DNA from: Thermoanaerobaculia bacterium
GTDB lineage: Bacteria; Acidobacteriota; Thermoanaerobaculia; Multivoradales; J023
DNA: 64,000 nucleotides
Assembly: GCA_030431255.1 (NCBI GenBank)
Contig: JAUIJL010000008.1
Coordinates: forward strand, 124,001-188,000
Reading direction: 5' to 3'
The position numbers and the translations under genes are program-made. The notes under the pieces were generated by a model that made no database searches, was not told the origin of the DNA, and saw nothing but the letters and a program-made list of their open reading frames with translations. Position 1 is the stretch's first letter. Every line of letters starts with the position of its first letter. Shown here one piece after another: positions 6,801 to 62,975 of the stretch.

Positions 6801-9800
6801 GGGCGAGATCGGCGGTTGCCAGGGTGGCAGTGAAGACGTCGATCACCTAGCCAAGGCCAACGTGGTGCAAGCACTGACCCGAGCCACCACCGAGCGAGGC
6901 CAGGGCACGGCGGAGTACGACACCTTAGACGCCGCCGCTAGCTACCAAGAAGACAATCTGGTGTCCTCGGTGACCGACGGCTTGAGCCGCGGTATCCAGC
7001 TGGCCGTGCCTTCGGCCATGGGCAGCGAAACCATGGCCTACCAGACCGAAGGGGTGCAGTCGAAATTCGACTATGACGCCTTCGGCCGAATCAAAGACAC
7101 CCAGGGTGGCCTAGCCAATCCCTTCATGGTGAAAAGAAGTTTCCACGAGGACGCCGCAGGCAAGAACCAAGCCGGCTTAACCAAAAGAATAGAGGCGGGA
7201 ACGGGCCAATTTTGGAGCGAGGTCGAATACGACGAGCAATTCAATCCGGACAAGAGCGAAACCTCCCAAGGAACCCGAACCGAAACCCGATACGACTCCT
7301 GGGATCGTCCGGTGCAGACCATTTCCGGCCTGTCGGACGGTCGTTATCAACCGGTCGGAACGCCCGAATGCGACGAGGAAGGAGCCCGCCAAGAGCTGGC
7401 CTTCGACGCTGCCGGGCATGTCGTGCGCATCCGCAAGCTTCAGGACTACGTGGATTCCGCGGGCAACGTTCAATGCCGGTGGGTCGAAACCCGATATCAA
7501 TACAACGCGCGGGAGCAGGTCGTCGGTGTCTTTCAGACCCATCTGGCGGATCCCAATCAACAAGGTGAGGTGCTCACGGATCCGACCCTGATATCCGAGT
7601 CGGTTTACGACTCATATGGTCGCGTCTTCAAGCAGCGTTCCCTCAACTTATCGGATCCGGCGATCGAGGAGGTCTTTTCCTACGACGCCGCGGGTCGGGT
7701 TCGGGGCGTCAAGATCGGGGACGCCGGCGAAAAGGTGCGCGGGTACGATGCGAAGAATCGAGTTGTGCTTCAGACCGACGGGCACCAGGGGCAATGGCTC
7801 GGTCGGTTCGACGTGTGGGGACGGGTCTTTTTCCAGAAACACGCGACTGGTGCTTTCGAGCTGGCCTTCTTCGATGAATCCAACAACCTCACCCGGCAAG
7901 AGAGCTACAACTCCGATCCGCTCTCTACTTCGGGCGACCCGAAGCTCATGGCCCGTCTGCGGACCCACTTCAACAGCTTCGGGGCGGTCGAACGGGTCGC
8001 GACGACTCTGATCGACAGCGACGAGCAGAAGCAGATTCTGATCACCGAACAGGAATATGACGACGCCGGGCGGCTGAAAGCGACCTGGAGCGGTCCGCCG
8101 AAGTCGACCGATCCGGAATGTGCGGATGTAGCTACGGCTTGCCTCGATACGTCGAAAGCACGACGGGAAAAAGAAATCCTTTACGAGCGCGACACGGGAC
8201 GCCTGCTCGAGGAGCGTTTCGGTGGCGATTATCGGGCGGCTCACCTCTATGCCCATCGCTATGAGTACCATCCGGACAACGCATCGCCCCAACCCGACAG
8301 AATGATCTATTTGGAGTCGGTTCCCGGTCAGGAGCCGCTCGAAGAAACCGGCAGCACGAAATATGAGCGTGACGCTTTCGGTCGAGTCGTCACCGAGCGC
8401 AAGAGTGACGGGTCGGTCACTCACGTCACCTACGATCGCAGCTCGAGCCAGCCGATCCGCATCCGAACCGGGGCGGATTCGGTCACACGCATGAGCTTCG
8501 ACGGAATCGGCAAACAGCTCCAGGTGTTTCGACCCAACGGTCGCGGTCGAACCCTTTACGTCTACGATCTGGACGGCCGCATGCTGCGCCAGATATCGAC
8601 CACCGACTCGGATGCGTGGATCACCCGCTTCACCTACGACCGCACGGGCAGAACCCGTCGGGTCGACTACCACGATGGCACCTATGAAGAGTCGACCTAC
8701 CATCCCGACAACACGGTCGCGACTTTTCGCACTCGCGACGGTGTTTCCATCACCCACACCTACGACGAAGCCAACCATCTTCTCAGCAGTGTTCCGACGG
8801 CGGGCGAGCCGGCCGACACGCTGGTGGATTTGGATGCCGGCGATTTTGCCGACTGGGACGAGCTCAGCCGTCCGACGTCTCTGCGTCGGGGCAGTCCCGG
8901 TAGCGCCGCCGCGGACCCCGATCTGACCGTCGCCTATCCTGCCTATGATCTGGCGGGTCGCCCCGATCGCGAGCGGGTGGGCTCACGAGCGGCGATGGCC
9001 TGGACCTACGATATTTATAGCCGACCCACCCGATTGACCCTGCCGGTGGGATTGAGCCACGACGCGGGGACCTCGTTCCAAGGTTTCACCCGCCAATTCG
9101 ATACCCTTGATCGCGTCTTCGATATCAGCGGTCTCGGAGCCCTGACCGCGGCGACTGTCGGCGTCACCTGGCGATGGGGCGGCAGTGATCGCCTCTACGG
9201 TTACGACACCAAGACGGCTCTCGGCACGGCGGCTCGATTCGGCTTTATCGACGGCGCCGGGCCCCAAGGCGAAGGTGACCAACCGCCGTCGTCCGAGTGG
9301 AAGCTCGGGACGTTGACTTGGGGCGCCGGAGCCGGTTCGGCCACCGAGGTGCCCGGCACCACCTGGGGGCAATTCGCTTTCGGCTGGCGTGGTGTCGACG
9401 GCGATCCGCGAGACGGCGTCAAGATCGGTCGTCAAGTCAAAACGGGTCTCGACGCCGGCGGGTTGGACCTCTTCGCGGGCATGGGCTGGACCTGGAAATA
9501 CGATGTCGGCGTGCGAATGCACGAAGCCTATCCGGGACGTGGCAATCTCGATGGCGTCAACGCCCGTCAGGTGCCCGGTTTCATCTACGACTACGGCGAA
9601 GGAGATGAGCTAGGTCGAATCGTCGACCAATTCGCCGGCAAGGTCGTAGAGGTAGAGACCGGAGCCTATGGCCGAATAGCGAGTCGCGACGGCGTCGATT
9701 TCGCATACGACGCCTCCGGCCGTCGTACCGAAGACGACCGCTATGTCTATCGCTGGAATTGGCGCTCGGAGCTCGTTGAGGTCACGGTCAAAGACACCTG

Positions 9801-50554: not shown

Positions 50555-51061
50555 ATGCCATCGAGAGCTCCCTGTGTTCCTCCCCCCGTGTTTTCCCAGG
50601 AGACGGCACTTTCTTCGATTCGTCGGGGTGATTTGGCCACCGAGCGATTGGTGATAGAGGCACATCTGGACCAAATGCGCGGAAAAGCTCCGGATAGCCT
50701 GGTCGGCACGAGCTCAGACGTTCGTCGGCTTCTCGAGGAGATTCACGGCGATCCCTTTGATCCACAGCTCAGCGTGAAATGCCTGAAGAAGCGTTGCAAC
50801 ATTCGCGACAACAATATTTCCAGCCGTTTTCGATTCACCTATGGAATCACGATCCGTCACTACATCGAGCAATTGAGGCTCGAGGCTGCGTCTTCGCTTT
50901 TGCGACAGCTGGACGTCGGCATTTTCGATATCGCGCTCTCCGTGGGTTATCAAAATCCCCAAACCTTCTACCAAGCGTTTCGCAAGCGATTCCAATGCAC
51001 CCCGTCGGATTTTCGGAGGCATCACGCGTCAGGGATGGCGAAACCGGGAGCGTCCCGATGA
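50555..51061 (+). CDS. Short AraC/XylS-type transcriptional regulator
   Basis: 168 residues from the ATG at 50555 (GGAGG seven bases upstream). The C-terminal ~100 residues form the double helix-turn-helix of the AraC family, with the signature DIALSVGYQNPQTFYQAFRK and the final PSDFRR. The N-terminal ~60 residues are too short for a cupin or sensing domain, so it is a minimal DNA-binding member. The stop overlaps the next ATG (ATGA), placing it in an operon with the dehydrogenase genes, which it may regulate. Cytoplasmic; ligand unknown. Confidence 0.88.
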   Translation: MPSRAPCVPPPVFSQETALSSIRRGDLATERLVIEAHLDQMRGKAPDSLVGTSSDVRRLLEEIHGDPFDPQLSVKCLKKRCNIRDNNISSRFRFTYGITIRHYIEQLRLEAASSLLRQLDVGIFDIALSVGYQNPQTFYQAFRKRFQCTPSDFRRHHASGMAKPGASR

Positions 51062-51549
51062 GTGGAACCGTGACCAGCGCGAGGCACGATGTGACCGAGC
51101 CCGATGATCGGAAGGTTCTGGAGCCCGAGTTGTCAGCCCGGAGGTTTGAGCTGGTGGCGGAGCGGGTGCTTCCCTCGGTGGACGGATTCCCAAGCGCCTC
51201 GGAGATTGGAGTGGGGAGCTATTTGGAGCGATTCGCGAAGGAGCCGTCTTTCGACGCGATCAGCGTGGACCTACGTCAGGCTTTGGAGTTGGTGGAGGAT
51301 CTCCTCTCCGAGATGTTCGGGGTTGGGCTCTCGGCGTCGAGCCCCGAGCAACGGGACGCGGTGCTACAGCGATTTGCGGACATTCCTATTCCCTCGATTC
51401 GGCGCCGATTTCAGCTCTTGGTGCAGGTTTCCATCGCCGGCTATTTCTGCCATCCCATCCATGGCGGCAATCGAAACGGGGACGGTTGGAAGGCCTTCGG
51501 CATCCGCATCGATCGCCGACCCGTCTCGAAGGGGTCTCACCATGGCTGA
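51058..51549 (+). CDS. Gluconate 2-dehydrogenase subunit 3-like protein
   Basis: 163 residues; the ATG overlaps the regulator stop. The C-terminal part has the family hallmark AGYFCHPIHGGNRNGDGW. This small subunit accompanies GMC-type FAD dehydrogenases of sugars and sugar acids. Family members often carry a Tat signal; none is visible here, so this complex may be cytoplasmic or exported with its partner. The gene overlaps the GMC oxidoreductase by 8 bases, which strongly supports a heterodimer. Confidence 0.88.
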   Translation: MSGTVTSARHDVTEPDDRKVLEPELSARRFELVAERVLPSVDGFPSASEIGVGSYLERFAKEPSFDAISVDLRQALELVEDLLSEMFGVGLSASSPEQRDAVLQRFADIPIPSIRRRFQLLVQVSIAGYFCHPIHGGNRNGDGWKAFGIRIDRRPVSKGSHHG

Positions 51550-53200
51550 GTCGTCAGAAAAATGGGATGTGATCGTCATCGGTAGCGGCGCCGGTGGCGG
51601 GCCCATGGCCTTTGTGCTCGCCAATGCGGGTTTACGGGTGTTGGTGTTGGAAAAAGGCTCGCGCCTGGGTCCCGAGCAGCTCTTGCACGACGAGATCACC
51701 CGGGCGCGTCAACGACACGCCTTCGTGCCCTCGGTCCAAGCGGATCCCCATGTGGTGGTGACGGAAGGCGGTGAGCCGGAGCTTTCCGATCTCGGTTGGA
51801 TCGGCAGCTGCGTGGGCGGCGGCACGGCGCGCATGGGCGGCTATTTCTATCGCTTTGTTCCGGACGATTTTCGCATGCGGAGCCGCTTCGGAGCGTTTGA
51901 GGAAAACGCCGATTGGCCCTACAGCTTCGCGGATCTCGAGCCTTACTACGTGGAAGCGGAGTGGCAGGTGGGAGTGTCCGGTGGCTCGGGGCCCCTCGAC
52001 GGTCCCCGTTCCAAGCCACTTCCCATGCCTGCTGTGCAATGCCATCCCATGGCAGAGGAAATCGACCGCGCCTGCGAGCGGTTGGGGATGTCTAGCTATT
52101 CCACTCCGAGGGCGGTGGCCACCCAGCCTTTCCACGGCCGACCCGCGTGTTCCTATTGCGCGGTGTGTGGGGACTACGGCTGTCCCACCGGCTCTCGGGG
52201 AAGCAGTCATACGGCCTTGCTCGATCGTGCGGAAGCCACGGGTCGCTGCGAGGTTCGTCCCCGGTCCATGGTCCGGGAGATCACGGTCGATAAAGGCGGA
52301 CGGGTCACCGGCTGCATCTACTTGGATGAGCACGACCGAGAGCATCGGGTGACGGCGAGGGTGGTCTGTTTGTCGTGCTCCGCGGTGGAGTCCGCGCGCC
52401 TGCTGCTGATGTCGCAATCTCCTCTGTTTCCGGATGGTTTGGCCAACGGTAACGGGTGTGTGGGACGCCATCTGCAGCTCCACAGCGGCTCCATGGGCCG
52501 GGGTAGCTTCGAGCCGGAGTCGACCCCCATCGGTGATCGGCTTTTCGATGCCGATCCCTACCTCGGACGTTCGGTGATGGATCACTATTTCCTGCCCGAG
52601 AAGGCTTCAGATCTACCCAAGGGCGGCATCCTCAGATTCGGCTTCACGTCTCCGGAGCCCATTGCCGGCGCCCGAAGCGTGGCTTTTCGCGACGGAGAAG
52701 CGCGCTGGGGAGAGCGGTTGATGCGAGACCTACAACATCACTTCCTGGGTCAGCGGGAGATTCACTTCGAGGTCTTCCACGACTTTGTGCCCAATCGAGG
52801 AACCTTCGTGGAATTGGATCCACAGGTGAAGGACCGTTGGGGCTTGCCGGTTGCACGGATTCACCTCGACTCCATCGAGCACCATCGCAAGGCTGGACGT
52901 TTTTTGGTCGATCGGGGTCTGGAGATCTTAGAAGCCATGGGTGCCGTCTCCACGGGGGAGGGCGCGATCGGCCGACCCACCCGTGTCCACCTTCACGGCA
53001 CCTGTCGAGCGGGAAACGATCCTGAAACGTCCGTGCTCGACGCCTATTGCAGATCCCACGAGGTGCCGAATTTATTTGTCGTCGACGGCAGCTTCATGCC
53101 CACCTCGGGCGGCGCGGCCCCGACCCTGACGATCCTGGCCAATTCTTTTAGGACTGCCCACCATGTGGAGCGGGCATTTCGTCGCGGGGAATTCCACTGA
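51542..53200 (+). CDS. GMC-family FAD-dependent oxidoreductase (gluconate/sorbosone-dehydrogenase-like large subunit)
   Basis: 552 residues from the ATG at 51542. The FAD-binding Rossmann motif VIVIGSGAGGGP is at residues ~10-21. Ferredoxin-like cysteines occur in the middle (CSYCAVCGDYGCPTGSRG), as in the gluconate/glucoside dehydrogenase branch. The C-terminal GMC_oxred_C domain has HLHGTCRAGNDP (active-site His) and VDGSFMPTSGGAAPTLTI. It should oxidise an alcohol or aldose, passing electrons via the small subunit to an unknown acceptor. The 3' end overlaps the convergent hlyD-like gene by 53 bases. The substrate is unknown; a tailoring role for the neighbouring peptide cluster is possible but unsupported. 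Confidence 0.9.
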   Translation: MAESSEKWDVIVIGSGAGGGPMAFVLANAGLRVLVLEKGSRLGPEQLLHDEITRARQRHAFVPSVQADPHVVVTEGGEPELSDLGWIGSCVGGGTARMGGYFYRFVPDDFRMRSRFGAFEENADWPYSFADLEPYYVEAEWQVGVSGGSGPLDGPRSKPLPMPAVQCHPMAEEIDRACERLGMSSYSTPRAVATQPFHGRPACSYCAVCGDYGCPTGSRGSSHTALLDRAEATGRCEVRPRSMVREITVDKGGRVTGCIYLDEHDREHRVTARVVCLSCSAVESARLLLMSQSPLFPDGLANGNGCVGRHLQLHSGSMGRGSFEPESTPIGDRLFDADPYLGRSVMDHYFLPEKASDLPKGGILRFGFTSPEPIAGARSVAFRDGEARWGERLMRDLQHHFLGQREIHFEVFHDFVPNRGTFVELDPQVKDRWGLPVARIHLDSIEHHRKAGRFLVDRGLEILEAMGAVSTGEGAIGRPTRVHLHGTCRAGNDPETSVLDAYCRSHEVPNLFVVDGSFMPTSGGAAPTLTILANSFRTAHHVERAFRRGEFH

Positions 53201-54443
53201 TCAGCGTCTCGTCCGAGGGCTCGACGCCGACCGGCTCCTGGGAATCGGTGGGTTGGGGCACGGGAGGGGCGCCCACCAAGAACTCATAGACCACATTGAG
53301 GAAAGGCATGCCGTGCCGGTAGGCGATCCTGGCCTTTCCGCGCATGCCGCCTCGCAAATAGAAGTCCCCGCCGTCGAGGCGTATCCAAGGCTCGTCGAGC
53401 AGAATTTCGACGCCGTAGACGGGCACACCGGCGGTGTCCACCTCCGGGCGCTGGTCGATGCGACGCACCTTGCCTTCAAAGGATTTGAAGCGCTCTTTGG
53501 GCAGACCCACCAGCTCGACCGCCGCGGTTTGACCCGTGCGGACTTGAATCACGGCTTCTTCGGGGATGCGTGAGATGAAACGGATGGACTCCACATCGAT
53601 CACCCGCGCCAGCTCGTCGCCTGGGGCGACCTGTCGCCCGATGAGGTCGTTGGCCGCCTCGGCGACCAAGACGCCGTCGATTTCCGCGGCGATCAAATAG
53701 TGTTGCTCCGAGCCCAGAAGGCGTTCGACCTCACCCCTCCAAAAGACCTCTTCGCTCTCCAAGCGAGCCAGCTCTGCGGCGGAGTCGAGGGTCGATTTCT
53801 GTTGCTCACCTCCCAGCAAGCGCAGCTCGATATCTACGGCTGCCTTGTTGGCGGTGGCTTGTTGCTCCTCAATTTGGCGCTGTCGAAGTCGCTCGCCGGC
53901 GGCGCTGACTCGGCGTCGGGCCTCTTCCACGTCTCGTTCGCTGACCAGGCCGTGCTCCGCCAGCTCGAGGGTTTGGTCCAAGCGTCGCTCCAAGGCCTCC
54001 AGGTCCAGCTCCGACTCCCGTTTCCTGGAAATCGCGAGCTCGGCTTCATATCGGCTTTGACGTTGCTCTTCCAGGCGTCTCGAATGCTCGAGGGGATCCA
54101 GGAGGCGAGCCCGCAGGTCGAGCTCGGCCCGGGATCGCGCCAAGCCCGAGCGAGTGGCAGCCAGCTTTTGCTCAGCTTCGGCCAGCCGGCCGATACGCTG
54201 CGGATCGTCCAACCGAAGCAGCGGTTGTCCCGCGGACACCCGCCGGCCGCCGGCTGCCAAGACCTCCACCACTTGTCCGACCACCGGCGTGCGCACGATT
54301 TGGTAATTGTGCACGGTGACCTGACCTTGGGCTTCGACGGTTCGTTCGAGCCGTCCGGCGAGGGTCAGGCCCACGGCCGCCAAAAGCATGAAGGTGAGCA
54401 TGACCGGGAATAATCTCAGGACCCATCGAAGAGGTTTCCTCAT
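53148..54443 (-). CDS. HlyD-family membrane-fusion protein of the peptide exporter
   Basis: 431 residues from the ATG at 54443, which overlaps the exporter stop (ATGA). One N-terminal membrane helix (LFPVMLTFMLLAAVGLTLA) anchors it in the inner membrane. A biotinyl-lipoyl-like segment follows (VEVLAAGGRRVSAGQPLLRLDD), then a long alpha-helical hairpin (~100-270, Glu/Arg/Leu-rich coiled coil) and a C-terminal beta-barrel. Such adaptors link an inner-membrane ABC exporter to an outer-membrane channel; no TolC gene is nearby. As last gene of the lasso-type cluster it suggests that the product is carried across the whole envelope. Confidence 0.9.
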   Translation of the reverse strand: MRKPLRWVLRLFPVMLTFMLLAAVGLTLAGRLERTVEAQGQVTVHNYQIVRTPVVGQVVEVLAAGGRRVSAGQPLLRLDDPQRIGRLAEAEQKLAATRSGLARSRAELDLRARLLDPLEHSRRLEEQRQSRYEAELAISRKRESELDLEALERRLDQTLELAEHGLVSERDVEEARRRVSAAGERLRQRQIEEQQATANKAAVDIELRLLGGEQQKSTLDSAAELARLESEEVFWRGEVERLLGSEQHYLIAAEIDGVLVAEAANDLIGRQVAPGDELARVIDVESIRFISRIPEEAVIQVRTGQTAAVELVGLPKERFKSFEGKVRRIDQRPEVDTAGVPVYGVEILLDEPWIRLDGGDFYLRGGMRGKARIAYRHGMPFLNVVYEFLVGAPPVPQPTDSQEPVGVEPSDETLISGIPRDEMPAPHGGQS

Positions 54444-56272
54444 GCGGTCGCGGCCCTCCACGGCTCTTTGGCGTCGGTAGTCTGATCCGGGTCGGCCTGG
54501 GATTCCGGGCCGGCCTGGGATTCCGGGCCGGCCTGGGTTTCCGACGCCGCGGTGGAGCGCTCCTGCTCGTCGATCAGGCGACGATAGGCGGCGCAACGTC
54601 GGTAGAGATCGGCGGGGCTGCCGTGGTCCAGCACCTTGCCCCCTTCCACCATCACCACACGATCCGCCCAGACGATGGCCGAGGGACGGTGGGCGATGAC
54701 GATCACCGTGCGATGCTCCAATGCTTGTCCGAGGGCCTGCAAGAGCCGATGCTCGGTGAAGCCGTCGAGGGCCGCAGTGGCTTCGTCGAGGATCAGCAAC
54801 GGCGTGTTTTGGAGGATTGCCCGGGCAATGGCGACCCGTTGTCGCTGGCCGCCGGAGAGCCGGTCTCCGCGGGAGCCCATCGAGGTGTCGAAGCCGTCCT
54901 CCAGGTCATCGACCACGTCCGCCACCTGGGCGGTGGCCAGGGCTTCGAGCAATTGATCGTCGTCGGCGTCAGGGCAGGCGTAGCGCAAATTTTCCCGCAG
55001 GCTGACGTCGAATAGGACGGGCTCTTGGGTGACGATGGCCGTGTGGCGTCGAAGGTCCTTCAGGGAAAATCGCTCGATCGGGATTCCACCGATGGTGATC
55101 GAGCCCCGATTGGCATCGTATTGGCGGGTCAACAAGCGGCCGACTGTGCTCTTGCCATTGCCGGACGCACCGACCAAAGCGATTTTTTCACCGGGTTGGA
55201 CGTCGAGCTCGAAGCCGTCGAGCACCGGAGTTTCGTCGTAGGCGAAGCCCACCGCCTCGAAGCGCACCCGAGGGGTGCCTTGGGGCCAGGCAAGTGGCTC
55301 GGCCGGATCGACGATGGTCGGTTCTTGCTCGAAGAGCTCCATTACCCGTCGGATGCTGGCGGTGCAGCGCATCAGCTCCGAATAGAGGTGCACCATCACC
55401 TCCATGGGCTCAAAGATACGAATCAGATACGAGTAAAAAGCCACCAATCCACCGATGGTGAGGTGGCCTTGAAGCACCCGATAGCCGCCGAACCCGAGCA
55501 CCGCGGCTCCGGCGAGGGTGACAGTCACCTGGTAGACGAACGAGAGGGTCAGCTCGTCGATTCGGCGGTCGAATCGCGTTTCCAGGGCCTTGCGCCCCAT
55601 CCGACCGAAGCGGCGTCGCTCTCCCGCTTGGCGGTTGAGCAGCTGCACCTGAACCATGTGAGCCAGCTGGTTTTCGAGAAAACCGTAGCGGGCGCCCACC
55701 GCCTTCTGGACTTTCTCCGAAGCCCGACGCAGGCGTTTTTGACCGTAATGGCGGAGCAACGCCATGGTCGGCACCAAAGGCAGCACCAAGAGGGCGAGCT
55801 GCCAATCCAGAAGCATCATCACCACGGCCGAGAGGAAGGTCATGATGATGATGCGCAAGAGGGAGGCTAGGCTCTGACCACCGATGCCCCCGAGCTGCTC
55901 GATGTCGCTTTCCACCCGATGCAGAAGCTCCCCGCGGGACCGGCGCAGGTAGAACTCTCCCGAGAGCCTTTGGAGATGGGCCAGCAGGCGTCGACGGATA
56001 TCAAAGGTCATGCGCTCGGCGGTGTAGACGTCGAGCAAGCGGTTCATGCTGCTGAAAGAAAAACGGAAGAAGAAAAGAGCGAAAAAAGCCAAGGCCACGA
56101 AGGGCAACATGTCCACCTGTTTCCAGGTGATCACTTGATCGATCAACCACTTGAGAATCAGGGGATCGATCAAGGCGAGAAAGCTGACCAGCCCGACGGA
56201 GGTCAGGCGCAGCCCGTAGAGGCGGCGTTGGGGCCAGGCTTGGCGGATCAACCACCGGATTTCTTTGGACAT
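54440..56272 (-). CDS. ABC exporter of the lasso-type cluster (D protein)
   Basis: 610 residues. I start at the ATG 56272 (MSKEIRWLIRQAW) because the upstream in-frame GTG at 56302 lies in the loop of a perfect hairpin. Six membrane helices (~20-310) are followed by the nucleotide-binding domain: Walker A GASGNGKST, signature LSGGQRQRVAIA, Walker B LLILDEATAALD and the switch His in VIAHRPSAIV. There is no C39 peptidase domain, consistent with leader removal by B2. The C-terminal tail has short GPESQA-type repeats of no known role. Together with HlyD it should export the mature peptide and give self-protection. Confidence 0.92.
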   Translation of the reverse strand: MSKEIRWLIRQAWPQRRLYGLRLTSVGLVSFLALIDPLILKWLIDQVITWKQVDMLPFVALAFFALFFFRFSFSSMNRLLDVYTAERMTFDIRRRLLAHLQRLSGEFYLRRSRGELLHRVESDIEQLGGIGGQSLASLLRIIIMTFLSAVVMMLLDWQLALLVLPLVPTMALLRHYGQKRLRRASEKVQKAVGARYGFLENQLAHMVQVQLLNRQAGERRRFGRMGRKALETRFDRRIDELTLSFVYQVTVTLAGAAVLGFGGYRVLQGHLTIGGLVAFYSYLIRIFEPMEVMVHLYSELMRCTASIRRVMELFEQEPTIVDPAEPLAWPQGTPRVRFEAVGFAYDETPVLDGFELDVQPGEKIALVGASGNGKSTVGRLLTRQYDANRGSITIGGIPIERFSLKDLRRHTAIVTQEPVLFDVSLRENLRYACPDADDDQLLEALATAQVADVVDDLEDGFDTSMGSRGDRLSGGQRQRVAIARAILQNTPLLILDEATAALDGFTEHRLLQALGQALEHRTVIVIAHRPSAIVWADRVVMVEGGKVLDHGSPADLYRRCAAYRRLIDEQERSTAASETQAGPESQAGPESQADPDQTTDAKEPWRAATA

Positions 56273-56287
56273 AGCGGTTCTGGGAGG

Positions 56288-56313
56288 AGGACCGGAGCTC
56301 ACGCTCCGGTCCT
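56288..56313 (-). terminator. Perfect hairpin between precursor A1 and the exporter gene
   Basis: 11-bp perfect stem AGGACCGGAGC / GCTCCGGTCCT with loop TCAC. There is no T-run after it, so it is more likely an attenuator or a 3'-end stabiliser that keeps precursor mRNA abundant. Confidence 0.6.
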
Positions 56314-56334
56314 GACCTCAATCACCGAGTTGGA

Positions 56335-56469
56335 TCAGAGGGCGATTTCGTCGCAACCGCACGATTTGGTGCAGTCGCAGGCATCGTCCGCGTCCAAGTT
56401 CGGGCGGCCGAGGGTCAGCTCACGGGCATCACCGAGGTCGACGATCTCAGGAGTTTCATAGGCTTGCAT
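56335..56469 (-). CDS. Lasso-type RiPP precursor A1, 44 residues
   Basis: The ATG at 56469 has GGAG upstream. The leader (residues 1-20) has the lasso leader signature: Tyr4, Pro7, Leu12-Gly13 and the penultimate Thr19. The predicted core starts at Gly21 (GRPNLDADD) and has 24 residues. The Gly21 amine could close a macrolactam on Asp28 or Asp29, giving an 8- or 9-residue ring. Four cysteines (31, 33, 37, 39) all lie in the tail, unusual for lasso peptides, and the end is DEIAL. The leader is identical to that of A2 over YETPEIVDLGDARELTLG. Role inferred from sequence and the surrounding B1, B2, C and D genes. Confidence 0.85.
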   Translation of the reverse strand: MQAYETPEIVDLGDARELTLGRPNLDADDACDCTKSCGCDEIAL

Positions 56470-56518
56470 GGTGTTTCTCCAAAGGGGTGCCGTAGAACGG
56501 CAAATTAAGGAACTTGCA

Positions 56519-56542
56519 GGACCGGAGCACATGCTCTGGCCC
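56519..56542 (-). terminator. Hairpin between precursors A2 and A1
   Basis: GGACCGGAGC / GCTCTGGCCC (two G-T wobbles or mismatches) with loop ACAT, a degenerate copy of the hairpin after A1. It suggests that gene plus hairpin were duplicated together. Confidence 0.5.
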
Positions 56543-56565
56543 CAGCATCGAGGCCGGGGGTCGGA

Positions 56566-56700
56566 TCAGAGAGCGATTTCGTCGCTGCCGCCGCCCGATT
56601 TGGTGCAATCGCAGGCGTCGTCGCAAGGCAGGTTGGGGCGACCGAGAGTCAGCTCACGGGCATCACCGAGATCGACGATTTCAGGGGTTTCATAGGTCAT
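56566..56700 (-). CDS. Lasso-type RiPP precursor A2, 44 residues
   Basis: The ATG at 56700 follows GGAGAAAAACCC. The leader (1-19) carries Tyr3, Pro6, Leu11-Gly12 and the penultimate Thr18. The core starts at Gly20 (GRPNLPCDD), 25 residues, with ring acceptor Asp27 or Asp28. Cysteines are at 26, 30 and 32: one in the predicted ring and two in the tail. The tail cysteines 37 and 39 of A1 are replaced by Gly/Ser here (SGGGS). The odd cysteine number leaves a free thiol or a dimer. The final DEIAL is conserved with A1. Confidence 0.85.
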   Translation of the reverse strand: MTYETPEIVDLGDARELTLGRPNLPCDDACDCTKSGGGSDEIAL

Positions 56701-56839
56701 GGGTTTTTCTCCATGGTCGTGCCGTCGAATGACGGCGGTTGTGCCGGAGCGGCCGTAGGGCACAAGGAACAGACCCTGTGATCCCTCGGACCTCTCCCAG
56801 CGTTGTAAACATCGTTCAAAAGGACGTCGAGCACGCCGG

Positions 56840-58792
56840 TCACGCGCCACGGGTTAGACGCCTGTGGTCGGATCGGTTCGCCGTCTCAGGGGTCGACGAA
56901 GGCTCTGTCTGCGGACGGCTCAGAGCGGTGGAGGAGCTCATGCTCCGCAACCACAGCTCGAGAGACACCGTCCGATGCATCTGGGCGGGCTGGCTCACCA
57001 AGCCGTGGCGCGCGCGGCCCAGGGCACTGCGGAAGGCGGCACCGTCGATCACACCGATACCTTCCAGCAAGGAATCTTCGAAAAGACTGCCGACCCATTG
57101 GCGTTCGCGGACCAGGGCGCGCTGGAATGCCTCCGTGGGTCCGGCTTTGGTCCTCCGCTCGAGCACCGATTGGGGCATTCGACCCTTGAGGGCTCGCCGG
57201 ACGACGGAGCGGGTCTCGTGGGGACGCAAGTGTTGGTCGATGGGAATCGCCAGGGTGAATTCCAGCAGGCGGCGGTCGAGATAGGGATATCGGACCTCGA
57301 AGTGACCCTGGCTGACGCATTTCTGCAAGGCGAAGACGCGCATGGTTTGGCGTAGCACCGAGTATTGAAATCCCCGGCTCCGGAGACGAAATCCGAGATC
57401 GTCACCGGGTCCTAAGGTGCGATCGCGGAAATCGGTTCGATCCAAGAAATCGGGCTTGAGCCAATCACCGATCGGTCGTTGTCGGCTGCGGGTTCTCCAA
57501 CCCGCGGGCCGCAGGGGCACCACCGCTCCCTGCCATAGGGTTTGGAGCAAGGGCCGTTGTCGGCTGCGGGCCCATCGATAGGCGGCCCTGAGCATGTGTG
57601 TGGGTTTTCCCTCGACCCAAAGATCCGCCAGCTCCAGGGGCACGTCGAGATCCTCGGCGAAGACGCATTGGTCTCCTCCCAAGCCGCTGAGCAGAATCCG
57701 AGAGCCGTGGGATTGCATCAGCTCGGAGACGCGATCGTAGCGAGCCAAATAGCTGATCTGATTGGTCGGCAGGTCGGGGCCCCAGCCGGCGGGCGGTCGC
57801 TTGCTGAGAATGGGGTGGTCTTCTTCCCGAAAGTGATGGGGCGTCACCCGGGTCGCCTTTTCGATTTCCCGGATGTAGGGACGCTCGTCGGCGGTGGTCG
57901 CCTGGTCGAAGACATAAGAGATCGTGTGCAGAGGGCGTTCTGGCACACGACCGGTGCGCATCAGCTCGTCGGCAAGGCAGACGATCGAGGAGGAGTCGAC
58001 CCCACCGGAAAGCTCGGAGAAAATCGGTCCGCCTCCCCGCAGTCGACATGCCACGGCTTGCTCGAAGAGCTCGGCGAAATGTTCTTCGTATTGTTGATCC
58101 GAGGAGTAGCGGATCTCGTGGCTGGGATCGAAATTCCAATAGCGGTGACGTTGCACGCCGTGGTGGTCCGCCACTAGAACATGTCCACCGGGCAAGCTTT
58201 CGATGCCGACGAAAGGCCCTCGGTCCGTGATGCTGTTGGCGAGGAAAGCGGCGATGAAATCGGGCTCGGGTTTGAGCTCGAGATCCAGGGTCTCTGCCAG
58301 GGCGCGGGCCCGGGACGACCAGACCACCTGCTCGTCGGTCACGTGGTAGTACAAGGGACGAAATCCCAGGCTATCCGTGGCCAGCACCAAGCGACCCTGG
58401 TGGGGATCCCACAAAGCCAAGGCGAAGTTGCCCACCAAGCGTCGAAAACCCTCCACCCCCCAGCGTCGATAGACCTCGGACACCAGCTCGATGGGGGACG
58501 CGTCTCCACAGGCGACTAGAGCGTTGGTGTCGATCGCGGACCGCAGATCGTCGGTGTTGTCCAACCAACCGTCGAACGTGATGATCAGGCCATCTCGGCA
58601 GACCTTGGGCTGCGCCGTTTCATCCTCTTCGCAGCCGGTGTTGAAGTGGCCGAGCATCATGCCGACCCGGGTGGAGTATTCGTAGCGGACCGAGTCCGGC
58701 CCCAAGGACCTCAGGGCCTCGGCCAAACGTCTGGGGATTTGGGTGCTCGGGGTTTCCCCCGATCGGTGGAAGACTCCGCCGATGGCGCTCAT
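56840..58792 (-). CDS. Lasso cyclase, asparagine-synthetase-like (C protein)
   Basis: 650 residues from the ATG at 58792 (MSAIGGVFHRSGE). The N-terminal half is an Ntn-type glutaminase-like domain, but residue 2 is Ser rather than the catalytic Cys of AsnB. This fits an enzyme that needs no ammonia. The C-terminal half has the PP-loop ELSGGVDSSSIVCL near residue 260, which adenylates the ring Asp side chain so that the Gly amine can attack it. It lies just upstream of the precursor genes and downstream of B1 and B2. The length fits lasso C proteins. An ordinary asparagine synthetase is unlikely in this context. Confidence 0.9.
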   Translation of the reverse strand: MSAIGGVFHRSGETPSTQIPRRLAEALRSLGPDSVRYEYSTRVGMMLGHFNTGCEEDETAQPKVCRDGLIITFDGWLDNTDDLRSAIDTNALVACGDASPIELVSEVYRRWGVEGFRRLVGNFALALWDPHQGRLVLATDSLGFRPLYYHVTDEQVVWSSRARALAETLDLELKPEPDFIAAFLANSITDRGPFVGIESLPGGHVLVADHHGVQRHRYWNFDPSHEIRYSSDQQYEEHFAELFEQAVACRLRGGGPIFSELSGGVDSSSIVCLADELMRTGRVPERPLHTISYVFDQATTADERPYIREIEKATRVTPHHFREEDHPILSKRPPAGWGPDLPTNQISYLARYDRVSELMQSHGSRILLSGLGGDQCVFAEDLDVPLELADLWVEGKPTHMLRAAYRWARSRQRPLLQTLWQGAVVPLRPAGWRTRSRQRPIGDWLKPDFLDRTDFRDRTLGPGDDLGFRLRSRGFQYSVLRQTMRVFALQKCVSQGHFEVRYPYLDRRLLEFTLAIPIDQHLRPHETRSVVRRALKGRMPQSVLERRTKAGPTEAFQRALVRERQWVGSLFEDSLLEGIGVIDGAAFRSALGRARHGLVSQPAQMHRTVSLELWLRSMSSSTALSRPQTEPSSTPETANRSDHRRLTRGA

Positions 58793-58838
58793 GGGAGCTC
58801 CTCGAAATGTTCTGCTGTGGAGGAAAGGATGGGATCCA

Positions 58839-59297
58839 TCAACATCGTTCCAGCTCGGCGTACCGGGTTTTGACGACCGGGTGATCGTTGACCACCATGC
58901 CGTCGACCTCGACCCAGGCGTGGGCATAGAAAGGAATCTTTTCGACACCGATCACCATTTCCGCGTCGATTCCTGCGAGCCGAAGCAAGATGGTGGTGGT
59001 GGCGGACCTTTGCAGGCACCAGGCCTTCTTGAAGTAATAGGCGGCCGCGCGATCGACCCCCGAGCAGATCCGCTGCACGGTTGCGGGATTTTCGGAGCGG
59101 CCCAGCCGTGGTGCCCTTCGGACCCATCCGTGAAGACGATGAAAACCGCCGATGCGAGTGACGCCGTCCACCAGAACCAGAGCGAAAAACGCACCCACGG
59201 CCGTCAAACGCTCGCCGAGGGTTCGGGCCGGGCTCAGATCCCGCGGTCGCAGCTCTTCGATCTGATCTCGTTCCAGAGCGGGCTCAGCGACGGACAT
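58839..59297 (-). CDS. Lasso leader peptidase, transglutaminase-like (B2 protein)
   Basis: 152 residues from the ATG at 59297, overlapping the end of B1 by 14 bases. It carries the transglutaminase-like Cys-His-Asp triad: Cys94 in KKAWCLQRSATTTILLRLAG, His126 in AHAWVEVDG and Asp138 in VVNDHP. This is the Transglut_core3 form of lasso B2 proteins, which cut the leader after the residue before the core Gly. Length and gene order fit the split B1/B2 type. Confidence 0.92.
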   Translation of the reverse strand: MSVAEPALERDQIEELRPRDLSPARTLGERLTAVGAFFALVLVDGVTRIGGFHRLHGWVRRAPRLGRSENPATVQRICSGVDRAAAYYFKKAWCLQRSATTTILLRLAGIDAEMVIGVEKIPFYAHAWVEVDGMVVNDHPVVKTRYAELERC

Positions 59298-59550
59298 CGA
59301 CCAGACCTTTTTGGTCGAGCATGCCGACGAATCCGTCGAAATCTTTCTCCAATCGGTCCGCGGGCGCGTCAAATTGGGCCGCGAGATGATTGAGGATGGT
59401 CTGCCGCTCGGCACCTTGCTCGAGCTGCTGCCAGATCTCGGTGCCGACCGGATTGATGCTGAAATATCGGCCCTCGCGCAAATCGAGCAAGACGGCGCCT
59501 TCGGCCTCCGACATGGCACGGACGTGGCCCTTGGTGCGAATTTGACTCAT
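59284..59550 (-). CDS. PqqD-like leader-binding protein (lasso B1, RRE)
   Basis: 88 residues, first gene of the cluster; the ATG at 59550 has GGATGGAG upstream. The PqqD/RRE fold is indicated by GAVLLDLREGRYFSINPVGTEIW-type strands and helix, followed by the C-terminal helices. The RRE binds the YxxP part of the precursor leader and presents it to B2 and C. It overlaps B2, so both are made together. Confidence 0.9.
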   Translation of the reverse strand: MSQIRTKGHVRAMSEAEGAVLLDLREGRYFSINPVGTEIWQQLEQGAERQTILNHLAAQFDAPADRLEKDFDGFVGMLDQKGLVDVRR

Positions 59551-62705: not shown

Positions 62706-62975
62706 ATGAGCCAACATCCGTTCAAACGTTACCTCGGCTGGTTCCTCTCGCTGTTCATGTCCCTGTCCGGCTTCATGTCCATGAGCGCTCCGGAGCAGAG
62801 CACCTGCGAGCCACCGGTGTGCGATCCTGAGATTCCCCTGGGCATCGAATTCGCGGTCGGTGACGATCCGCCGCCGTGCCCACCGGCCGGTTGCGATCCA
62901 CAGCTGCCGTCGGGCATCGAATTCATGGTCCACAGCTCCGATGGGGAAGGGGGGGAGTTTCTGATCGATTGGTGA
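62706..62975 (+). CDS. Small secreted protein with an internally duplicated CDPxxPxGIEF motif
   Basis: 89 residues, ATG at 62706 behind AAGGAG. It has a short basic start and a hydrophobic segment (YLGWFLSLFMSLSGFMSM), a signal peptide or anchor. The mature part has two similar halves: CEPPVCDPEIPLGIEFAVG and CPPAGCDPQLPSGIEFMVH, each with a Cys pair, then an acidic tail ending FLIDW. It has its own 5' hairpin and a strong 3' hairpin. I do not recognise a family. Possibly a secreted structural or signalling peptide, or an unusual peptide precursor, but no modification gene is adjacent. Confidence 0.7.
   Translation: MSQHPFKRYLGWFLSLFMSLSGFMSMSAPEQSTCEPPVCDPEIPLGIEFAVGDDPPPCPPAGCDPQLPSGIEFMVHSSDGEGGEFLIDW

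Follow-up and report, generated by a model that had tools for sequence, protein, structure and literature searches.

The 64,000-nucleotide stretch analysed here (the window; Thermoanaerobaculia bacterium, assembly GCA_030431255.1, contig JAUIJL010000008.1, positions 124,001 to 188,000) carries on its minus strand a set of genes that, judged from its sequence, is very probably a lasso peptide cluster, and beside it on the plus strand an operon encoding an oxidoreductase of the GMC family. The cluster itself is of a known kind; what is new is its pairing with a GMC oxidoreductase of the type linked to ribosomally synthesized and post-translationally modified peptides (RiPPs) and its conserved Cys-x-Cys core. 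The explanation that we tentatively favour, partly by analogy, is that the operon would be the cluster's own oxidative tailoring unit, and that the Cys-x-Cys stretch of the precursors would be oxidised by the GMC enzyme, most likely to a thiazole. The parts of this explanation differ in strength. An action of the GMC enzyme on these peptides appears reasonably probable because of the gene order in a second genome, the rare core shared with it and the RiPP-linked clade to which the enzyme belongs. That the product is a thiazole, an idea taken from the analogy with the enzymes ThaO and TheO, has in our view a nearly even chance, and for the complete picture, a lasso peptide in which a flavin GMC enzyme forms at least one thiazole without a YcaO protein, the chance is somewhat short of even.

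The lasso genes, in the order B1, B2, C, A1, A2, D and HlyD, run from 59550 to 53148 (Table 1). A preliminary description of this DNA had already listed them as a contiguous minus-strand set, and the reading frames bear this out, including the overlaps of B1 with B2 (14 bases) and of D with HlyD (4 bases, from the coordinates); the remaining gaps are 46 bases (B2-C), 139 (C-A1), 96 (A1-A2) and 62 (A2-D). Pfam matches were found to PqqD, Transglut_core3, Asn_synthase with a GATase domain, an ABC exporter and HlyD. The residues highlighted in that description are also where it placed them: B2 has the Cys94, His126 and Asp138 of a Cys-His-Asp set, C (AsnB-like) starts with MSAIGG and so has Ser2, with SGGVDSS at 262, and both precursors, of 44 residues, have a leader with Y-x2-P, L-G and Thr at -2. 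The PqqD-like nature of B1 was likewise upheld. Among the NCBIfam lasso models, the leader and B2 pass their cut-offs, and the cyclase and PqqD models match below theirs: all the lasso PqqD models matching B1 stay under their own thresholds (55.9 bits against the 70 demanded by NF033530, for example), and NF033535 is the best NCBIfam match of C, yet under its cut-off. In the Protein Data Bank (PDB) the matches of B1 include the lasso B1 proteins TbiB1, TfuB1 and 9x90; a search with B2 found no lasso B2 structure there.

A tree of 23 cyclase rows was used to place C. It held the window enzyme, two from the genome G167, one from G334 (a genome of the same genus as the window's), eight others from the phylum (of which seven adjoin a B2 match and one is unlabelled), six encoded in lasso loci of plasmids, among them the microcin J25 locus of E. 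coli, and five AsnB-type enzymes; L022, which looks like a near-copy of L021, L027 (the match to the second G167 cyclase) and part of the phylum cyclases were left out. The five AsnB-type rows split off as one side of a branch with 100/100 support, and the window cyclase falls in a set of ten lasso-locus cyclases (92/97) as the sister of the first G167 cyclase (96/94), with that of G334 outside the pair (100/99). The tree is unrooted and has long branches, and the lasso-locus rows from Halopiger and G362 lie nearer to the AsnB side. A cyclase scan of genome_contigs, in which 84,980 species are represented by a single genome each, confirmed no relative. A grouping of the enzymes with another family, named in the preliminary description as evidence against its lasso assignment, was not seen in this tree, and we consider this assignment well founded because the leader and B2 pass the lasso cut-offs and the tree separates C from the AsnB-type enzymes.

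The two precursors are close to each other (22 of 33 aligned codons are identical, nine differ silently and two change the residue). The core starts at Gly20 in the gene at 56566-56700 and at Gly21 in that at 56335-56469, which agrees with the earlier positions (Gly21 for A1, Gly20 for A2) if the A1 of that description is the gene at 56335. Core cysteines number three in A1 and four in A2, those of A2 forming two Cys-x-Cys pairs. When 396 genomes of the phylum were searched with the precursors at E 0.1, ten genomes matched, including the window's own and G167. The latter has three precursors matching those of the window (E 1e-7 to 5e-5), with the cores GWTNLSVEDGCECTKWKEE, GFTELWVEDACECTKNKED and GNMDGDTFDSCDCARWKE; the remaining eight genomes, at E 0.01 to 0.1, were taken as chance. 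All five cores share Gly1, Asp9, Cys11, Asp or Glu12, Cys13 and Lys or Arg15. Cys11 and Cys13 are the sole cysteines common to all, and the residue before Cys11 is always small (Ala, Ala, Gly, Ala, Ser). Asp9 would supply the acidic residue expected at core position 7-9 for the ring, and since the third G167 core has Phe8, it is the acid common to all, which makes a nine-residue ring the natural reading. A profile of the five precursors, run on 147 genomes of the class, returned the two of the window and one lasso precursor in G380 that lacks cysteine. A DNA pattern with the core spacing matched three stretches in genome_contigs, one of them a contig with three matches spaced as in G167; those in Chloroflexi and Thermoplasmata were judged from their reading frames to be chance. 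The same pattern had no match in viral contigs, and the precursor search of plasmids gave none either. By these sequence searches, close relatives of the window cores are found in one other genome alone, G167. The preliminary description, for which the cores resembled no known lasso peptide, is partly right in this.

These observations also bear on the alternative of an unthreaded macrolactam or some other AsnB-type modification. Threading cannot be read from a sequence and the NF033535 match of C is under its cut-off, but the leader, B2 and the cyclase tree all indicate a lasso peptide and Asp9 is kept in five of five cores, so that we regard this alternative as very improbable.

The plus-strand operon (50555-53200) lies outside the region covered by the preliminary description (53148-59550). 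Its three genes, for an AraC-type regulator, a Gluconate_2-dh3-like partner and the GMC oxidoreductase, overlap end to start, and it meets the lasso genes tail to tail, the end of the GMC gene overlapping that of HlyD by 53 bases. In G167 the corresponding genes are collinear and in one direction: AraC, Gluconate_2-dh3, GMC, a MacB-like permease starting 4 bases after GMC, B1, B2, C and two precursors. Between the window and G167 the AraC proteins are 51% identical over 105 amino acids and the GMC proteins 52% over 540. Directly upstream of the AraC/GMC module, G167 encodes a further lasso cyclase, B2 and B1 (L030 3998-6367, minus strand), and a third lasso precursor on the opposite strand and a PCYCGC-family protein adjoin its cluster (L028 6283-6444, plus, and 9105-9569, minus).

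GMC genes are common in the phylum: 105 of the 396 genomes have a match at E 1e-40 or better, in a search that scored at most three candidates per genome (at most nine in the class search below). Identity to the window GMC above 50% was reached at three of the places listed, namely the window, G167 and contig C50 of the window's own genome (58%), where a second GMC gene stands upstream of a LanM gene (DUF4135, LANC_like) and a precursor ending in GGCSYGTFCPTSAICSPCPPKHCY. The LanM, the GMC and this precursor with its GG-Cys core together form a tha-like lanthipeptide cluster (L094 4015-9493). Searching 148 genomes of the class at E 1e-110 added three more places. In G438:C182 the GMC gene is beside a LanM and a precursor 53% identical to that of C50; in G409:C616 it is beside a ThiF-type protein, YcaO, a nitroreductase and an M16 peptidase; and in G438:C342 it is beside an M16 peptidase and an open reading frame (ORF) judged MacB-like by eye. 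At G409:C616 (L110 8202-16674) Gluconate_2-dh3, GMC, M16, ThiF-type, YcaO and nitroreductase genes are codirectional, that is, a member of this group of GMC enzymes stands beside a classical azole set. At G438:C342 (L111 8609-16594) a Gluconate_2-dh3 gene is also present and no gene of a known RiPP class was recognised.

In a tree of 37 rows these six GMC proteins form one clade (100/100), whose neighbours are lasso genes in two cases, LanM in two, YcaO in one and an M16 peptidase only in one. At the 11 next-best GMC loci, no match to B1, B2, C, LanM, YcaO or M16 was found at E 1e-5, and among 43 genomes of the family of G167 only G167 itself has a GMC of the RiPP-linked clade. In favour of a link with the lasso genes, the module accompanies the two clusters that share the core signature and have sister cyclases, and nine other lasso loci of the class (L029, L113-L120), that of G334 included, gave no match to GMC at E 1e-5 over the stretch examined; by eye no further GMC place, among those listed (to near E 1e-53), lies within 20 kb of the 99 above-cut-off B2 places. 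Some of the stretches examined (L097, L098, L099, L101, L102, L113, L115 and L117) extend up to or close to the end of their contig, and the absence of a neighbour there counts for little; the sample is small, six clade rows and two lasso loci.

The enzymes of this clade are also set apart by their presumed catalytic residues. Fructose dehydrogenase aligns with the window GMC over its whole length (best PDB match, E 3.3e-49), and PDB titles name N1146A and H1147A variants of the matched enzyme. The His and Asn so aligned are generally known as the catalytic pair of GMC enzymes. At the Asn position (window residue 526, Ala) the six clade rows carry Ala or Pro without exception, and all 31 others Asn, His or Gln; at the His position five of the six clade rows have Leu or Met, the window has His483, and 30 of the 31 others have His. 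The loss of the pair may thus serve as a sequence mark for finding more such enzymes. A Tat-type RR-x-F motif near the start of the Gluconate_2-dh3 partner is present at six of six ordinary loci tested (of 11) and at none of four RiPP-linked ones, which would fit work in the cytoplasm.

A precedent for the chemistry has been published. According to the main text of PMC13083261 (2026), ThaO is a GMC enzyme encoded in a class II lanthipeptide cluster from Thermoanaerobaculia; it converts a Gly-Cys in its precursor to a thiazole, a change of -20 Da studied by isotope labelling, mutants, tandem mass spectrometry and nuclear magnetic resonance. TheO, for which the paper names contig DATEIO010000468.1, without its LanM and on short cores, gave a -20 Da product consistent with a thiazole, and the authors stress that there is no homology to ATP-binding enzymes. 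The word lasso is absent from the main text of that paper, and 'thiazol' from the main texts of two reviews of lasso peptides (PMC9266682, 2022; PMC13352647, 2026). In the open-licence literature, which includes few subscription papers and preprints, combinations of lasso with GMC, thiazole, azole or heterocycle yielded nothing on point by title or start of abstract, and GMC with thiazole and RiPP yielded PMC13083261 alone.

Several observations weigh against a GMC-made thiazole in the window peptides. The operon is on the strand opposite to the lasso genes, and the module is found at two lasso loci alone. The window GMC retains the His483 that is lost in the other five clade rows, and its row falls outside those five (90/84), the G167 enzyme grouping with those of G409 and G438:C342; a tree constrained to unite the two lasso-linked enzymes is 6.14 log units worse, a difference too small for rejection (p 0.152), so that they are not established as sisters. 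No Gluconate_2-dh3 gene is next to GMC in the ORF lists of the two LanM-linked loci, and the modules therefore differ. As to the substrate, replacing Gly by Ala before or after the cysteine impaired TheO (PMC13083261, main text), and these Gly flanks are missing around Cys11, whose neighbours in both window cores are Ala10 and Asp12; the sole Gly-Cys is Gly18-Cys19 of A2, and one G167 core has Gly10 before Cys11. The window GMC is likened to ThaO and TheO through the description of them in the main text and through the LanM-linked rows of its clade. Because of the missing flanks we do not class it as a proven member of the ThaO/TheO kind. Given Ala10 and Asp12, either the window enzyme would differ in its taste, or another site would be used (Gly18-Cys19 of A2), or the oxidation would be a different one.

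Some of these points would favour a plain lasso cluster with the operon as a neighbour acting on something else. The convergent strands, the abundance of GMC genes in the phylum and the class lasso loci that manage without one are all in its favour. However, the three-gene module recurs codirectionally with the lasso genes in G167, only six places reached the RiPP-linked clade in our searches, all of them beside peptide-maturation genes or a peptidase, and the catalytic pair is changed. As a whole answer a plain lasso cluster leaves the recurring module unexplained, and we retain it as a rather unlikely rival.

Another rival keeps the oxidation and dispenses with the thiazole, the GMC enzyme or air joining Cys11 to Cys13, and Cys17 to Cys19 in A2, as disulfides. 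The four core cysteines of A2 would suit it and the three of A1 would not, and a Cys-x-Cys disulfide across one residue is, as general knowledge has it, strained. Disulfide-bearing lasso peptides are a known kind, and the flavin-dependent oxidoreductase FilE of the felipeptin cluster has been guessed to form a disulfide, but in the view of that review the disulfides of lasso peptides probably arise without an enzyme (PMC9266682, main text), and the GMC relatives in LanM clusters make a thiazole (PMC13083261, main text). We consider disulfides in place of a thiazole unlikely. The preliminary description allowed for them as the further change, which is possible; because of the GMC operon next door, our first guess is a thiazole.

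The cysteines could also be read as a metal binder or as a redox dithiol that exchanges electrons with the GMC/Gluconate_2-dh3 pair. In its favour, Cys-x-Cys occurs twice in A2, the G167 cluster is adjoined by the PCYCGC-family protein, and Gluconate_2-dh3 partners, as is generally known, usually transfer electrons. Nothing in the window cluster indicates a metal, however, and the GMC clade is common to LanM and YcaO loci, which leaves this very improbable and the least probable of the readings considered.

Under the favoured explanation of a thiazole-forming operon, B1 would bind the Y-x2-P leader, and the GMC enzyme with its partner subunit would act in the cytoplasm on the precursor while its leader is bound, oxidising one of its cysteines; most likely Cys11 would cyclise with the backbone to give a thiazole (-20 Da). 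The calculated monoisotopic masses of the linear core, the lasso and the lasso bearing one thiazole are 2493.057, 2475.046 and 2455.020 for A1 and 2484.003, 2465.992 and 2445.966 for A2. We have picked Cys11 because it is present in all five cores and is alone preceded by a small residue throughout. B2 would then cleave before Gly1, C would link Gly1 to Asp9 with the tail threaded, and D and HlyD would export the product; the AraC protein would control the GMC operon. If this is true, thiazole formation by GMC enzymes, as reported for lanthipeptides in 2026, extends to lasso clusters as well. Judged from the main texts of the two reviews, a lasso scaffold bearing an azole would be new, and GMC chemistry, if it works on a lasso precursor, would be a portable tailoring step across RiPP classes.

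Table 1. Genes of the lasso cluster and of the adjoining GMC operon, with window coordinates
Feature	Position	Strand	Evidence
AraC-type regulator, 168 aa	50555-51061	+	PF12833 64.8 bits (cut-off 33.6)
Gluconate_2-dh3-like partner, 163 aa, without RR-x-F motif	51058-51549	+	PF13618 51.1 bits (cut-off 23.4)
GMC oxidoreductase, RiPP-linked clade, 552 aa	51542-53200	+	PF05199, PF00732; tree
HlyD-family adaptor, 431 aa	53148-54443	-	PF13437 48.2 bits (cut-off 22.2)
D, ABC exporter (permease and ATPase), 610 aa	54440-56272	-	PF00664 and PF00005, over cut-off
Precursor A2, 44 aa, core GRPNLDADDACDCTKSCGCDEIAL	56335-56469	-	NF033521 30.1 bits (cut-off 19)
Precursor A1, 44 aa, core GRPNLPCDDACDCTKSGGGSDEIAL	56566-56700	-	NF033521 30.2 bits (cut-off 19)
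C, macrolactam (lasso) cyclase, 650 aa	56840-58792	-	NF033535 300 bits (cut-off 525); tree
B2, leader peptidase, 152 aa	58839-59297	-	NF033537 85.9 bits (cut-off 33); PF13471 88 bits
B1, PqqD-like leader-binding protein, 88 aa	59284-59550	-	PF05402 65.2 bits (over cut-off)

Two smaller features were seen in the window. The residues QAGPES are repeated near the C terminus of D (54485-54545), and a candidate ORF of 89 amino acids (62706-62975, plus strand) has a hydrophobic start and a CDPxxPxGIEF-like stretch that occurs twice.

Compared with known systems, the window is closest to the lasso clusters with split B1 and B2 (NF033521, NF033537, NF033535), with which it shares the gene set, the leader motif, the B2 triad and the cyclase grouping; it differs from them in the HlyD gene next to the exporter, the Cys11-[DE]-Cys13 stretch after Asp9 and the adjoining GMC operon. 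The lasso locus of G334 has relatives of B1, B2, C, the precursor, D (48% identical) and HlyD (35%). We had considered HlyD as a novel point of the window and dropped it, as HlyD adjoins the exporter there too. Its core, AFVGGTIADNDCVYRDGWA, is without Cys-x-Cys, and no GMC gene lies in the stretch examined. With the GMC enzymes of the fructose and glucose dehydrogenase type that work with Gluconate_2-dh3, the window protein has in common the fold family over its whole length and the PF13618 family of the subunit, and it departs from them in the Ala at the catalytic Asn position and in the partner without RR-x-F. Finally, the clusters of ThaO and TheO are class II lanthipeptide clusters and that of the window is a lasso cluster; as far as the main text of PMC13083261 describes them, both kinds pair RiPP genes with a GMC-family enzyme and have a core that contains cysteine, and the window enzyme belongs to the same clade as the GMC proteins linked to LanM.

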